From contig NC_015416.1 of NCBI RefSeq assembly GCF_000204415.1, positions 682,001 through 746,000 of the forward strand: a DNA stretch of 64,000 bases, in the 5' to 3' direction. The DNA is from Methanothrix soehngenii GP6 (GTDB taxonomy: Archaea > Halobacteriota > Methanosarcinia > Methanotrichales > Methanotrichaceae). The notes beneath the pieces are model-generated. The model was not told where the DNA came from and searched no databases. It saw only the letters and a list, made by a program, of their open reading frames with translations. How positions within the stretch are numbered: position 1 is the stretch's first letter; the number at the start of each line of letters is the position of its first letter. A program made the translations under genes and the position numbers. This document shows, piece by piece, positions 12,657 to 20,915 of this stretch.

Positions 12657-14621
12657 ATGAAGGACTTTATGGGATCGAGAACCACCTATTACAGTCTGGC
12701 TAAAGATAGATTGAAGGGAAAGCATCCCAGAATATACAATCTTATTTTGATACTCACACTGATGTCACTGACTGGCACAGCCGCTTTTCTGATTTCGGAT
12801 ATCTTTTCTTTCGGCATCGATTACGATAATATGAGCATTCAGGGCGGCAAGGGCATCATATTCCCAGCTCTTTGGGGCGACAAAAAAGCAAGCAGTGGTG
12901 CTACGGATGACGGAGGACAGGAGAATGCTTTGAGTGCTCTTGATGCCAATGCATCCCCAGATAAGGCGATGAGCAGCCAATCGACCTCGAATTCAACAGG
13001 CAAGGATGAAAATGGAAATGCGAGCAGGGAGCTTGATTCGTCCCAAAACAGCTCCGCAACTGGGCAGGCGACAGGCTCCATCGCTTCTGCAAAGAAGACC
13101 AGCTCATCAACCAGCAGCAAGAAAAGCCATAGCTCATCAGGCTCTTCAAGCTCATCCCGTTCAAAGTCCTCGTCGGAGAAGGAAGAGAAAGCAGCCGTCC
13201 CGGATAATGAGAGCGCAAATGCTACTGCCAAAAATCAGACATCCATAAGTCAATTGCCAGAAAAAAGCTCTGATGAGGGAGCGATAAAGGCGGACGAGGA
13301 CGAAAAGGCCGGAAAGCAGGCAAATGAAGAGACGCCGGCAGAGATTGAAACATCTGCGGAGGCTAAAGCAACGGCCAAAGCGGAGACACCGGCCAAGCCA
13401 GAGACGACAGAGACCGGGACAACGGTCAAAGCAGACACACCAAACGATATCGATGCCCGGGTTATGGCCGCTGGGGAGGCAAGCTCGACACCTGCAAAGG
13501 CAAATGAGATGCAGGAGAGCCAATCTGAGAAGAGAGATGAACTGGCAAAGGAACGGGCAGAGCATAATGAAAAAGTGGCAAATGAAAAGGCTCTGTCATC
13601 GAGCCAATCTGCAGAAAAGGCGAGCTTGACAGCGTCGCAAAGAAGCACAGAGCGGCAGGAGAGCCAATCTGTGAAGAAGGATGAACTGGCAAAGGAACGG
13701 GCAGAGCATAATGAAAAGGTGGCAAATGAAAAGGCTCTGTCATCGAGCCAATCTGCAGAAAAGGCGAGCTTGACAGCGTCGCAAAGAAGCACAGAGCGGC
13801 AGGAGAGCCAATCTGTGAAGAAGGATGAACTGGCAAAGGAACGGGCAGAGCATAATGAAAAAGTGGCAAATGAAAAGGCTCTGTCATCGAGCCAATCTGC
13901 AGAAAAGGCGAGCTTGACAGCGTCGCAAAGAAGCACAGAGCGGCAGGAGAGCCAATCTGTGAAGAAGGATGAACTGGCAAAGGAACGGGCAGAGCATAAT
14001 GAAAAAGTGGCAAATGAAAAAGCTCTGTCATCGAGCCAATCTGCAGAAAAAGCGAGCTTGACAGCATCGCAAAGAAGCACAGAGCGGCAGGAGAGCCAAT
14101 CTGTGAATAAGGACGAACTGGCCGAGGAACGGGCAGAACGCAATGATGAAGCGATGAGTGCAAAGGCTGTTGCAGCACCATCCAATTCAGAGAAAAGCAA
14201 TAATGCGGCTGCGATCCTATCCATACAAGCATCAGATCCTCAGAAAGAAGTTGGAAGCAATGACCAGTGCTCCGCGTCTGCACAATCCTCTCCCCCTGCA
14301 CAAGAGGAAAAGGATTCTGCATCCCTGTCTAAAGCCTCTGCCTCCAGCTCCCGCGATCAGGCGCAAAAAGAGAGGACAGAGGCAATCGAGAATAGCAGGG
14401 ACTTGAAAAGCAGCCGATCAGAGCAGTCCGAAAAAATAGCAGTCATGAGAGCCGATCGCAATGTTGCAGCTGCTGACTCGAAGGCCTCAGCCGCAGATCT
14501 TCGGTCCCAGGCCCAGTCTGAGCGGACGAAAGCAAGAGAATTGGCCAAGGAGACGGCTCTCTCCAAGGCCGATGCAAAAAGCAGAGAGCTCGAAGAGGGC
14601 AGATCCAGATCTGCCGCCTGA
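12657..14621 (+). CDS. Membrane-anchored Ser/Lys/Glu-rich protein with 48-aa tandem repeats
   Basis: This 654-aa protein has a short basic N-terminus, one transmembrane segment (residues about 27-50, LILILTLMSLTGTAAFLIS), a Ser-rich linker and a long hydrophilic, probably coiled-coil region. Four nearly identical 48-residue repeats (units with KDELAKERAEHNEKVANEK and SSSQSAEKASLTASQRS) run from about residue 286 to 477, followed by a fifth, diverged partial copy. Similar K/E/S-rich segments continue to the end. Topology suggests a surface stalk or envelope-spanning protein. I recognise no enzyme domain. Confidence 0.82.
   Translation: MKDFMGSRTTYYSLAKDRLKGKHPRIYNLILILTLMSLTGTAAFLISDIFSFGIDYDNMSIQGGKGIIFPALWGDKKASSGATDDGGQENALSALDANASPDKAMSSQSTSNSTGKDENGNASRELDSSQNSSATGQATGSIASAKKTSSSTSSKKSHSSSGSSSSSRSKSSSEKEEKAAVPDNESANATAKNQTSISQLPEKSSDEGAIKADEDEKAGKQANEETPAEIETSAEAKATAKAETPAKPETTETGTTVKADTPNDIDARVMAAGEASSTPAKANEMQESQSEKRDELAKERAEHNEKVANEKALSSSQSAEKASLTASQRSTERQESQSVKKDELAKERAEHNEKVANEKALSSSQSAEKASLTASQRSTERQESQSVKKDELAKERAEHNEKVANEKALSSSQSAEKASLTASQRSTERQESQSVKKDELAKERAEHNEKVANEKALSSSQSAEKASLTASQRSTERQESQSVNKDELAEERAERNDEAMSAKAVAAPSNSEKSNNAAAILSIQASDPQKEVGSNDQCSASAQSSPPAQEEKDSASLSKASASSSRDQAQKERTEAIENSRDLKSSRSEQSEKIAVMRADRNVAAADSKASAADLRSQAQSERTKARELAKETALSKADAKSRELEEGRSRSAA
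13512..14140 (+). repeat. 144-bp tandem repeat inside the surface protein gene
   Basis: The anchor CAGGAGAGCC occurs at 13512, 13656, 13800, 13944 and 14088, an exact 144-bp (48-codon) period. Copies 1-4 are almost identical at the DNA level. The fifth diverges after about 50 bp. Near-identity suggests recent duplication or gene conversion and likely copy-number variation. Confidence 0.95.
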
Positions 14622-17026: not shown

Positions 17027-18339
17027 ATGTCTAATCAAGAGATTCGAGACCCCATCCATAATTTTATCCGGCTGGAGACAGAAGAGATGCGGGTCCTGGA
17101 TTGTGGTCCCTTCCAGCGGCTCAGGCATATCCATCAGCTTGCTTTGACCTATCTGCTCTATCCAAGTGCCACTCATCGTCGATTTGAGCATTCTCTAGGG
17201 GTCATGGAGCTTGCCAGCAGAGTCTATGATGTGATAACGGACCCGGATAACATCCATGAATCAGTAAGATCAATAATTCCCAGGAAATTTGATCTGGAAT
17301 ACTGGAGAAGAGCATTGCGCATGGCGGCTTTATGTCACGATCTTGGCCACCTTCCATTCTCTCACGCAGCAGAGCGCGATCTCTTGCCAGCCGGCTGGGA
17401 TCACGAGCGTCTAACCCTGGAGCTGATTCGCAGTGGCGAAATGGAGCCGATTTGGACTGCGATGAAAGTGAACTCTGAGGATGTGGCAAAGCTTGCCGTG
17501 GGTCCCAAACACTACAAAGATAGCAGATTTGATGACTGGGAGGCTATACTCTCCGAGATAATAGTAGGCGATGCCTTCGGAGTCGACAGGATGGACTACT
17601 TGCTTAGGGACTCCATCACATAGGAGTTGCCTATGGGCGATTTGACCAATATCGTCTGATCGATACCCTTCGCATTCTACCCAAAGTTGACCGAACCTCA
17701 GAGGAGGAACCGGGATCACAGGAACCGGCCCTGGGTATTGAAGAAGGAGGAATTCACTCTGCAGAAGCGCTACTGCTGGCGAGGTACTTCATGTTCTCTC
17801 AGGTCTATTGTCACCATGTTCGCCGAATTTACGATATTCATCTAAAAGACTTTCTCAAGAGCTGGCTTCCTGGTGGCGTGTTCTCTACATCCATAGAAGA
17901 ACTACTGAGGATGACCGACAGCGAGGTAACGCAAGAGCTCTCCAAGGCAGCCCGGGATGAAAATCATCCTGGTTTTGATTCGGCCCGTTGCATTGCCAAG
18001 AGGGTGCATTTCAGATTGCTCTACCAGAGGACAAGGGAAGATCTAGAAAAAAACCGCGAGTCCGGCAAGGCTGTTTTTATTGCAGCATGCAAGGAATTTG
18101 GGGAATCTGAGGTCCGGCATGATACATACATCCAGAAGGGGAGTGGTCTAAACTTTCCCGTTATCGCCAGAGATGGCCGGATTTTTTCTTCTCTTTCCAG
18201 GTCGGAGACTATAGAAAAAGTGCCAGTGGTAGCGATTGATTATGTTTATATAAGCCCGGTGTGCAGAAAAAGAGCTGAGACCTGGCGTGAAAAGAATCTG
18301 ACAAGGATCATCAGTTCGAAGGAGGGAGTGGAAGAATGA
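17027..18339 (+). pseudogene. HD-domain phosphohydrolase, frameshifted (or sequence error)
   Basis: The first frame (17027-17623, 198 codons) carries the HD motif set: RFEHSLGVMELA, LCHDLGHLPFSHAAE and GVDRMDYLL. It stops at TAG just after LLRDS. In the -1 frame the expected continuation HHIGVAYGRFDQYRLID follows at once and runs to 18339. The break is explained by loss of one C in a CCC tract near 17614 (GACTCCATCAC instead of GACTCCCATCAC). The intact protein would be about 437 aa, a SAMHD1/dGTPase-like nucleotide phosphohydrolase. It overlaps the YwgA-like gene. Confidence 0.85.
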
Positions 18340-18890
18340 TGAAGAGAATGCAGCGAGACGCCGTTCTGCTCTCGTTGATAAAAGAGATGAAAGATAAAGG
18401 GAGTTGGTGCGGTGAGACTCACATCCAGAAGGCTGCGTATTTTCTGCAAGAGCTGCTGGGAGTCCCAATGGGTTTCGAGTTTATTCTTTACAAGCATGGG
18501 CCGTATTCATTTGATCTGAGCGACGAGGTCACTGCGATGCGAGCGGATAGCTTGCTGGAGTATAAAACACGTGTGCCCTATGGGCCAAACCTTTTTCCCA
18601 CAAAAGAAGGCCAAGAATTCCTTCTTCGATACCCTAAGACGCTAAGCAATTATGCCGACAGAATTAACTTTGTCGCTGAGAAGATCGGGAATTTAGGCGT
18701 TGCAGATCTTGAACGCCTTGCTACTGCCCTGTATGTTACCTTCGACGAGAACGTAGAAGGAAAGTCACGAGAGGATACGATCATTGAGCTGAAGCCTCAC
18801 ATCACGATTGATGAATCCTGCGAAGCATTGAAAAAAATTGATGCCATAAAAAGAGAAGCAATGGAAAAAGGACTATCCAGCAGCTCATGA
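18336..18890 (+). CDS. YwgA-like protein, partner of the HD hydrolase
   Basis: This 184-aa protein has the YwgA/SocA-like features GETHIQKAAYFLQELLGVP and FEFILYKHGPYSFDL near the N-terminus. Its ATG overlaps the HD gene stop (ATGATG). In Bacillus subtilis, ywgA sits next to the HD gene ywfO, so the HD-YwgA pairing is conserved across domains. The biochemical role is unknown; a regulatory or substrate-gating function for the HD enzyme is inference. The stop overlaps the HsdS remnant. Confidence 0.75.
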   Translation: MMKRMQRDAVLLSLIKEMKDKGSWCGETHIQKAAYFLQELLGVPMGFEFILYKHGPYSFDLSDEVTAMRADSLLEYKTRVPYGPNLFPTKEGQEFLLRYPKTLSNYADRINFVAEKIGNLGVADLERLATALYVTFDENVEGKSREDTIIELKPHITIDESCEALKKIDAIKREAMEKGLSSSS

Positions 18891-18985
18891 TGCATGTCCT
18901 CAAGCGCTACCAGGCCCAGACCGCCGCCGAGCTTGACGCCCTCACACCCGCGATACTGGAGCGGGCCTTCCGGGGCGAGCTTTGA
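18890..18985 (+). pseudogene. C-terminal remnant of type I restriction subunit HsdS
   Basis: A 31-codon ORF ends ELDALTPAILERAFRGEL, the signature end of HsdS specificity subunits (coiled-coil conserved region 2 followed by the AFRGEL tail). The target-recognition domains and the hsdM and hsdR genes are absent. It marks a former type I restriction-modification locus. Confidence 0.75.
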
Positions 18986-19035: not shown

Positions 19036-20385
19036 ATGGCAGAAGGAATAACGCGCATCTCTGTGAAGGGTTTCAAGTCCCTGGCGGAAGAGTGCTCCAT
19101 AGAAGTTCGTCCCCTGACAATACTGGCAGGTGCCAATAGCTCAGGCAAGTCGAGCATAATGCAGCCATTGTTGATAATGAAGCAGACCCTGGAGGCTACA
19201 TATGATCCGGGCCCGCTCTTGCTTGATGGCCCAAATGTACGTTTTACCTCTGTTAATCAATTTATGCCTAAGTTCAATTCATCAGGAGGGTACTGGATCT
19301 CACCTGGTTTGTTAAATGAGTTTGGTGTCGACCTGATACATCAGTTTAGCTTGGGATTGGAATTAGAAAACTCTATGTCATTTAATGAGTCATTCATTAT
19401 CAAAAAATCTTATGAAATAGATATAGGTGAGATCTCATTCCAAAATGAATATGGCAATACTATCCTGCGTCCAAAAATGACACATGACGAGATGAGTTCA
19501 GCTTTTCTATTGGCTCGTCGTCCTGGGTGGACAAGGAATTATTTTAAAAATGAACTGAATAATAAGGTTCCGAAGCTGATCATTGAGCGAAATAGGTTCT
19601 TTTTAGAATTAAAATTAATTACAGGTGATGATGAATATATCACACAATTAAATAGGACTTTCTCAAATGCCATTTTAAGCTTGATTCACCTTCCAGCGTT
19701 GCGAGGAAATCCGGAGAGAAACTATAAGAAGACCTCTACAGGCCCTAGATTTCCTGGAACCTTTGAGATTTATGCCGCCAGCATAATCCACAATTGGCAG
19801 GCAAACCGGGACCCGCGCCTTCACGCTCTCGGAGCTGCCCTGGAGGTGTTGGGATTGACCTGGAAGGTCGGCGCAAGGGCTATCGATGATGTCAGCTTTG
19901 AGGTGATGGTTGGGCGCCTCATCCATAAAAAAAATGATGATTCTAACGACATGGTGAGCATTGCAGATGTGGGATTTGGCCTATCGCAGACTCTCCCCGT
20001 CCTTGTAGCTTTATTGGCGGCAGAGCCTGGCCAACTGGTCTACATAGAGCAGCCTGAGATCCATCTGCATCCAAAGGCCCAGATGGCGATGGCGCAAATT
20101 CTGGCGGAGGCTGCCAACTGCGGTGTTCGAGTTGTGGTCGAGACCCACAGCTCCATGCTGCTTCTGGGCATACAGTCTATTGTTGCCGAAGGAAAGCTAT
20201 CGCCAGATAAGGTCAAGCTCCACTGGTTCAAGAGGAGGCCGGAGGACGGCGTTACGGAAGTATCCAGTGCGGACTTGGACAAAGCAGGGGCTTTCGGTGA
20301 CTGGCCGGAGGATTTCTCATCCGCAGAAATGGACGCTGATATCCGCTACATTCATGCAGCCGAGGCTCGTCTGGAGCCGAACTAA
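19036..20385 (+). CDS. AAA ATPase (OLD/AAA15-like, DUF3696-type C-terminus)
   Basis: This 449-aa protein has an SMC/ABC-type split ATPase. The N-terminal strand is ISVKGFKSLAEECSIEV, Walker A is GANSSGKSSIMQ (residues 32-43), the signature-like segment is VGFGLSQTLPVL, Walker B is QLVYIEQPEIHLHP and the switch His lies in VVVETHSSMLL. The C-terminal WPEDF segment resembles the DUF3696 end. There is no fused nuclease; the overlapping next gene supplies a PIN-like one. Middle codons (19240-19680) are AT-richer than the ends, suggesting mosaic origin. Confidence 0.85.
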   Translation: MAEGITRISVKGFKSLAEECSIEVRPLTILAGANSSGKSSIMQPLLIMKQTLEATYDPGPLLLDGPNVRFTSVNQFMPKFNSSGGYWISPGLLNEFGVDLIHQFSLGLELENSMSFNESFIIKKSYEIDIGEISFQNEYGNTILRPKMTHDEMSSAFLLARRPGWTRNYFKNELNNKVPKLIIERNRFFLELKLITGDDEYITQLNRTFSNAILSLIHLPALRGNPERNYKKTSTGPRFPGTFEIYAASIIHNWQANRDPRLHALGAALEVLGLTWKVGARAIDDVSFEVMVGRLIHKKNDDSNDMVSIADVGFGLSQTLPVLVALLAAEPGQLVYIEQPEIHLHPKAQMAMAQILAEAANCGVRVVVETHSSMLLLGIQSIVAEGKLSPDKVKLHWFKRRPEDGVTEVSSADLDKAGAFGDWPEDFSSAEMDADIRYIHAAEARLEPN

Positions 20386-20915
20386 TGTCATCCCCAGATG
20401 GGTTGTGTCTGGTCATCGATGCATCAGTGGCCACATCCACCGGCGAGCGGGGCCAGAGAGGTGTGCTCTGCCAGCAATTCTTAAAAATCATGATAGAGAG
20501 GACATCTCATCGGCTGGTGATGACGAAAGAGATAGGCGCTGAATGGGATGTCCACTCTCATCCTTTTGCTCGAAAATGGAGAAGAAGCATGAACGCCAAA
20601 AAGAGGGTTGATCGGCCAAGAATAGATCACGATCCCCTATTGGCGGAAAAGATCGTTCGGGCAAATACACCAGAAAAAGCTCTTAATGCTATGGAAAAAG
20701 ATCTGCATCTTGTCGAGGCAGCAAGGGCAACAGATAACCGTATCGTCTCGCTTGATGACGCTGCGAGGAGATATTTCTGCGCAACTTCCGCCATTGCTGG
20801 CGAGCTCAGGCAGATCTTGTGGGTAAATCCTGCCATGGAAACCGAGAGGCCAATTCAGTGGTTAGAGGAGGGCGCTCCTAATGAAGAGGAACGACTGATA
20901 CGTCCTCCTGCCTAA
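20385..20915 (+). CDS. PIN-like nuclease partner of the AAA ATPase
   Basis: This 176-aa protein begins with a hydrophobic strand ending in an acidic residue (LCLVIDASVATSTG), has an internal Glu in TKEIGAEWD, and late acidic residues in DLHLVEAARATDNRIVSLDD. This is the spacing of PIN-domain nucleases, though it is more divergent than VapC. Its ATG overlaps the ATPase stop by one base, so the two are translated together. A nuclease gated by ATPase sensing, as in abortive-infection modules, is the favoured inference. No direct functional evidence is available. Confidence 0.7.
   Translation: MSSPDGLCLVIDASVATSTGERGQRGVLCQQFLKIMIERTSHRLVMTKEIGAEWDVHSHPFARKWRRSMNAKKRVDRPRIDHDPLLAEKIVRANTPEKALNAMEKDLHLVEAARATDNRIVSLDDAARRYFCATSAIAGELRQILWVNPAMETERPIQWLEEGAPNEEERLIRPPA

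Follow-up and report, generated by a model that had tools for sequence, protein, structure and literature searches.

A predicted PIN-fold protein paired with an OLD-type ABC ATPase, a candidate antiviral system of methanogenic archaea and bacterial prophages

The window, i.e. the whole 64,000-nucleotide stretch of Methanothrix soehngenii GP6 analyzed here, belongs to a 3.03-Mb archaeal genome. It carries two genes on the forward strand that overlap by 1 nt, with the stop of one and the start of the other joined in TAATG (20383-20387). The first gene (19036..20385, +) encodes an ATPase of 449 aa, and the second (20385..20915, +) a protein of 176 aa. The first-pass annotation had proposed an OLD/AAA15-type ATPase whose stop overlaps the start of a small protein; both open reading frames were found at these positions, and the two genes are intact and translationally coupled.

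In Pfam, the ATPase matched AAA_15 (E 7.9e-26) and AAA_21 (E 3.4e-23), and its C-terminal part had a sub-threshold match to DUF3696. Weak matches to SMC_N and RecF were seen in the profile libraries. The Walker A motif GANSSGKSS (residues 32-40; 19129..19155, +), noted already in the first reading, was evident in the sequence. The alignment placed the ABC signature region SIADVGFGLSQTL at residues 308-320 (19957..19995, +), with the signature GFGLSQ. Sequence and alignment placed the Walker B and D-loop stretch QLVYIEQPEIHLHP at residues 333-346 (20032..20073, +), where the motif reads VYIEQPEIHLHP, and the H-loop is ETHS. With Walker A, signature, Walker B, H-loop and matches beyond the family cut-off, the protein is an OLD-type ABC ATPase (AAA_15/AAA_21). 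Its top models in PADLOC were NsnB of Menshen (4e-58), HEC-03B (5e-41) and PDC-M55A (1e-37).

Profile searches with the 176-aa protein gave nothing above noise in Pfam, NCBIfam, PADLOC or PHROGs, and its family profile found only noise among PDB sequences. Structure prediction by AlphaFold (AF2) with the sequences of 13 relatives reached a pLDDT of 94 and a pTM of 0.89; this model used a 13-sequence alignment, and a 3-sequence alignment gave a pLDDT of 45. The best PDB match of the model in Foldseek was a toxin-antitoxin chain from a mycobacterium (7vwo; prob 1.00, TM 0.53, E 3.5e-3). Many of the next matches were PIN proteins too, and the top ones included protein-only RNase P, the NYN domain of KHNYN, Nob1 and VapC4. 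The residues D12, E53-W54, K105-D106, H108, S122 and D124 were invariant in all 13 members. Among them are four acidic residues, D12 (20418..20420, +), E53 in an EW motif (20541..20543, +), D106 in a KDxH motif (20700..20702, +) and D124 in an SxD motif (20754..20756, +). The acidic tetrad of PIN domains has the same order and spacing.

Both marks of the PIN superfamily, the predicted fold and the conserved acidic tetrad in the sequence, were thus found. Because the Foldseek E-values were modest, the protein was judged to be divergent, and it is the combination of fold, acidic residues and repeated PIN matches that carries its assignment. Taken together, the model and the fold search support a divergent PIN-fold protein, where "PIN-like" had been a guess. 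A predicted structure lacking a nuclease-like acidic pocket would have spoken against the first reading; what was predicted is a PIN fold, with four invariant acidic residues in the sequence. The protein is a putative nuclease and the proposed effector of the pair.

Upstream of the pair lies a remnant of an HsdS 3′ end (18887..18985, +), whose open reading frame ends in TAAELDALTPAILERAFRGEL. It was recognized by eye and by DNA matches in contig L017, and had been reported in the first reading. The preceding gene (18336..18890, +) encodes a protein resembling the C-terminal part of DarG (NCBIfam, E 1.7e-9, below the cut-off). No such neighbor was seen beside those relatives whose surroundings were read, and it probably does not belong to the pair. 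Further upstream, an HD phosphohydrolase gene (17027..18339, +; Pfam HD, E 3e-8, and HD_assoc_2) was present as annotated, though one frameshift splits it into the frames 17027-17623 and 17791-18339, with the missing middle read in another frame. The enzyme is dGTPase-like, and contig L016 has the same split frames. Elsewhere in the window, positions 12657-14621 encode a protein rich in Ser, Lys and Glu, in which a nearly identical repeat (..KKDELAKERAEHNEKVANEKALSSSQSAEKASLTASQRSTERQESQSV..) occurs about five times. Outside it, at ~630.3-636.9 kb of the same genome (G000:C1; L082:6301-12842), an apparent Gabija-like pair was seen by eye from the translations. It consists of a 613-aa OLD-type ATPase and a 623-aa UvrD-like helicase, and directly adjoins type I HsdS and HsdM genes, the HsdS gene being identified by PF01420 matches.

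Homologs of the two genes were found together in every assessable case, whereas rare co-occurrence would have spoken against the first reading. Among 295 genomes of the phylum, the small protein had three real matches, in its own genome, in one of the same family (G110) and in one of another family (G019), each directly preceded by the ATPase. A weak PIN match in a further genome (G067) was rejected; its frame holds five stops, and no nuclease-like open reading frame was seen there. A scan of the genome collection with the small protein retrieved three contigs, L016, L017 and L018, each of which carries the pair; L018 is the same contig as that of G110. L016 is from Methanosaeta sp. PtaU1.Bin112. 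Its ATPase is letter-for-letter identical to that of the window, and it encodes the first 131 residues of the PIN protein.

When the ATPase alignment was used to search viral contigs, 12 of them (L041-L046, L054-L058 and L067) proved to encode full-length relatives of 37-46% identity. A relative of the small protein was the next gene in 11 of them; the twelfth, L057, ends at the ATPase stop and was not assessable for pairing. A scan starting from the small protein retrieved seven viral contigs, all seven with the pair and all already found through the ATPase. The viral PIN genes start between 35 nt before the ATPase stop and directly at the stop, and archaeal copies have overlaps of 1 to 20 nt or near-contact. 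Altogether, pairing was seen for each of the 15 clade ATPases that could be assessed, at four distinct archaeal loci and on 11 viral (prophage) contigs, a count that describes a sample and is no census, as L042 and L043 are near-identical and both scans depend on short peptide patterns. PINs of the window's type, or one whole pair, had no matches in phage, plasmid and E. coli collections. In this sample, ATPase and PIN protein are exclusively paired in archaea and bacterial prophages alike, with the PIN gene always 3′ of the ATPase gene.

The prophage copies have defense-type neighborhoods. In contigs L042, L045 and L046, the pair lies upstream of HNH and terminase genes, in L058 between tail genes, and in L056 and L067 next to an integrase. 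In L054 it adjoins an ABC-3C system (DUF2326 and HNH-CTD11), and in L044 an Abi_alpha gene is nearby. Prophages, including those of Bacilliales, carry hotspots of antiviral systems (PMC9122126). The archaeal neighborhoods appear weakly defense-like, with HsdS tails and, by eye, HEPN-like and RelE-like genes. The pair has moved between loci, since its neighbors differ: HsdS tails are found in the window and in L017, and others in the unrelated loci L018 and L014. In L017, HsdS 3′-end remnants flank the pair on both sides (744-826 and 2745-2828), like direct repeats, and may mark a site of integration or exchange. A whole-genome search found no second HsdS tail downstream of the window's pair.

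The ATPases of the clade are conserved around the catalytic motifs and hypervariable between them. Mean pairwise identity in the 15 sequences was 79% around Walker A, where NSSGKSS was unchanged in 15/15, and 70-71% in the signature and Walker B regions, and it fell to 9-24% at residues 76-200. The ATPases of the window and L017 are 93-97% identical at their ends and ~30% identical in the middle. In the window, this central region (residues ~76-200; 19261..19635, +) coincides with an AT-rich stretch, with a GC content of 36-39% around 19150-19750 versus 50-57% on either flank. The AT-rich middle had been noted before and is real; it had been read as a hint of transfer or recombination. Since it coincides with the hypervariable region, which is divergent in relatives too, recent transfer into this genome explains it no better than a sensor region that has diversified or been exchanged. 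The hypervariable middle is as expected for a trigger-sensing region, and it may be the part of the ATPase that meets a viral trigger.

Context and pairing make the defense reading of the two genes well supported. The pair is very probably a little-described antiviral system of the abortive-infection type and a variation on a known theme. That the two genes form one antiviral module, in which the ATPase holds the PIN nuclease and the outcome is abortive, is in our judgment likely. For this module we infer a course that runs from complex formation through trigger and release to an RNA substrate and an abortive outcome. The ATPase would form a complex with the PIN nuclease and keep it inactive. 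A viral trigger would be bound by the ATPase, most likely through its hypervariable middle, and the triggered ATPase would free or activate the PIN protein. The freed PIN would then cut RNA, with tRNA as the likeliest target, and the infected cell would stop making virus.

The ATPase is proposed as the sensor and PIN keeper because AriA plays this part in PARIS, where it sequesters the tRNase AriB and releases it on meeting a phage protein (PMC11455837). By this analogy, an ATPase that responds to infection by letting the PIN go, as the first-pass annotation had suggested, is plausible. PIN domains are needed for phage defense in two unrelated systems (PMC13092281). The choice of tRNA is a guess by analogy, suggested by PINs of the VapC type and by the RNA-ligase gene found beside HEC-03, a candidate system of PADLOC-DB.

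We see roughly even chances that the pair is a separate, unnamed immune system of methanogenic archaea and bacterial prophages, with an exchangeable trigger sensor in the hypervariable center of the ATPase and an RNA-cutting PIN of a family that Pfam, NCBIfam, PHROGs and PADLOC lack. Separate status would be needless if it were a divergent member of the catalogued HEC-03 or Menshen. The ATPase matches to NsnB and HEC-03B speak for this, and HEC-03 (HEC-03A and HEC-03B) is similarly built. Its DUF3696-type OLD-ABC ATPase has on its 3′ side a small PIN-like protein that is comparable in length and carries a similar D...E...D...D pattern (DTN...EY...D...D). In contrast, the window's PIN protein had no match to the HEC-03A model at E 1, and together with 12 relatives none even at E 5; hhalign gave a profile-profile probability of 17% between the PIN family and HEC-03A. 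In a 42-row tree of ATPases, the window's clade was separate from that of HEC-03, each with support of 100/100. The ATPase lies outside the HEC-03 clade, and HEC-03B was its second-best PADLOC model, after NsnB. NsnA and NsnC of Menshen are absent. Membership in HEC-03 was accordingly rejected, on the missing HEC-03A match and the separate ATPase clade, and we regard assignment to either catalogued system as unlikely.

HEC-03 pairs occur in viral contigs, on plasmids and, within the window's phylum, in one archaeon. Those of L023, L024 and L031, from plasmids of Azotobacter and Aeromonas and from an archaeon, are followed by an RNA-ligase-like gene, confirmed by PF09414 for L024. This gene is possibly a third HEC-03 component that would mend cut RNA. 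It often adjoins HEC-03, whereas the window's pair has no RNA-ligase third gene.

A toxin-antitoxin-like addiction module, in which the ATPase neutralizes a PIN toxin and loss of the genes leads to post-segregational killing without any specific viral trigger, would account for the tight gene overlap and the occurrence in mobile elements, and VapC-type PINs are classic toxins of such modules. However, the ATPase, which is 449 aa long, has the full set of ABC motifs and is hypervariable in its middle, does not resemble small antitoxins. The nuclease gene is the second of the two, and prophage members adjoin other defense genes. These features make an addiction module distinctly unlikely.

Some PIN-like enzymes cut DNA and PIN enzymes may also serve in RNA processing, and OLD-type ATPases are related to SMC and RecF, as the weak profile matches reflect. 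The PIN nuclease could then attack viral or plasmid DNA, loaded onto it by the ATPase in the manner of SMC/Rad50-type ATPases. Against this, most of the closest solved folds belong to PIN proteins that act on RNA, and the RNA ligase gene often found beside the analogous HEC-03 hints at an RNA substrate; a DNA target thus seems improbable. Protein-only RNase P was among the fold matches, but housekeeping RNA processing (e.g., tRNA maturation) with no role in defense is highly improbable for a PIN gene that is patchy (~1% of the sampled genomes of the phylum), occupies unrelated loci in relatives and is present in prophages.

To our knowledge, few antiviral systems beyond CRISPR and restriction are known in methanogens. 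Read as an antiviral module, the ATPase-PIN pair is a compact candidate system for these archaea, with copies in prophages, and it adds a PIN effector family missing from all four profile libraries used here (Pfam, NCBIfam, PADLOC and PHROGs). Its hypervariable ATPase region makes a concrete prediction of where the trigger would bind.

Among other known systems, Menshen (NsnA, NsnB and NsnC) shares with the pair its ATPase type, NsnB being the best PADLOC match, and differs in its partners, here replaced by a 176-aa PIN protein. It was rejected, as the PIN gene stands downstream of the ATPase gene and the HsdS remnant and the gene resembling DarG lie upstream. PARIS likewise consists of two genes, an ABC ATPase (AriA) and a separate nuclease effector (AriB). 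Its effector is a Toprim protein; no Toprim partner is present here, where the partner has a predicted PIN fold, and PARIS was rejected as well, although the pair, as an ATPase sensor with a nuclease effector, would work in a PARIS-like way. DUF3696-type ATPases swap partners, with NsnC in Menshen, HNH- or DUF262-type neighbors on plasmids and PIN-like proteins in HEC-03. By eye, the partners of other archaeal ATPases of the superfamily (L032, L036 and L037) are likewise short and PIN-like, or truncated. Further archaeal DUF3696-type ATPases are followed by short proteins with PIN-like motifs at L035:2754-3224, L036:2063-2497 and L037:2035-2322; the motifs in L036 are VVVIDAS...KDIHL...SLD, and the effectors of L035-L037 are divergent or truncated.

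OLD-ABC ATPases paired with PIN endoRNases have been described in BREX contexts and proposed as a back-up suicidal effector (Rakesh & Krishnan 2026, PMC12839542). As described there, those pairs are BREX auxiliaries, whereas no BREX gene was recognized among the neighbors read here. The pair had been called undescribed. This does not hold for the combination of OLD-ABC ATPase and PIN as such, which is already published and has an analog in HEC-03; it may hold for the distinct ATPase clade and for the PIN family, which match none of the models. The clade is set apart from HEC-03 and Menshen, for which it could be mistaken if ATPase models were the sole guide.
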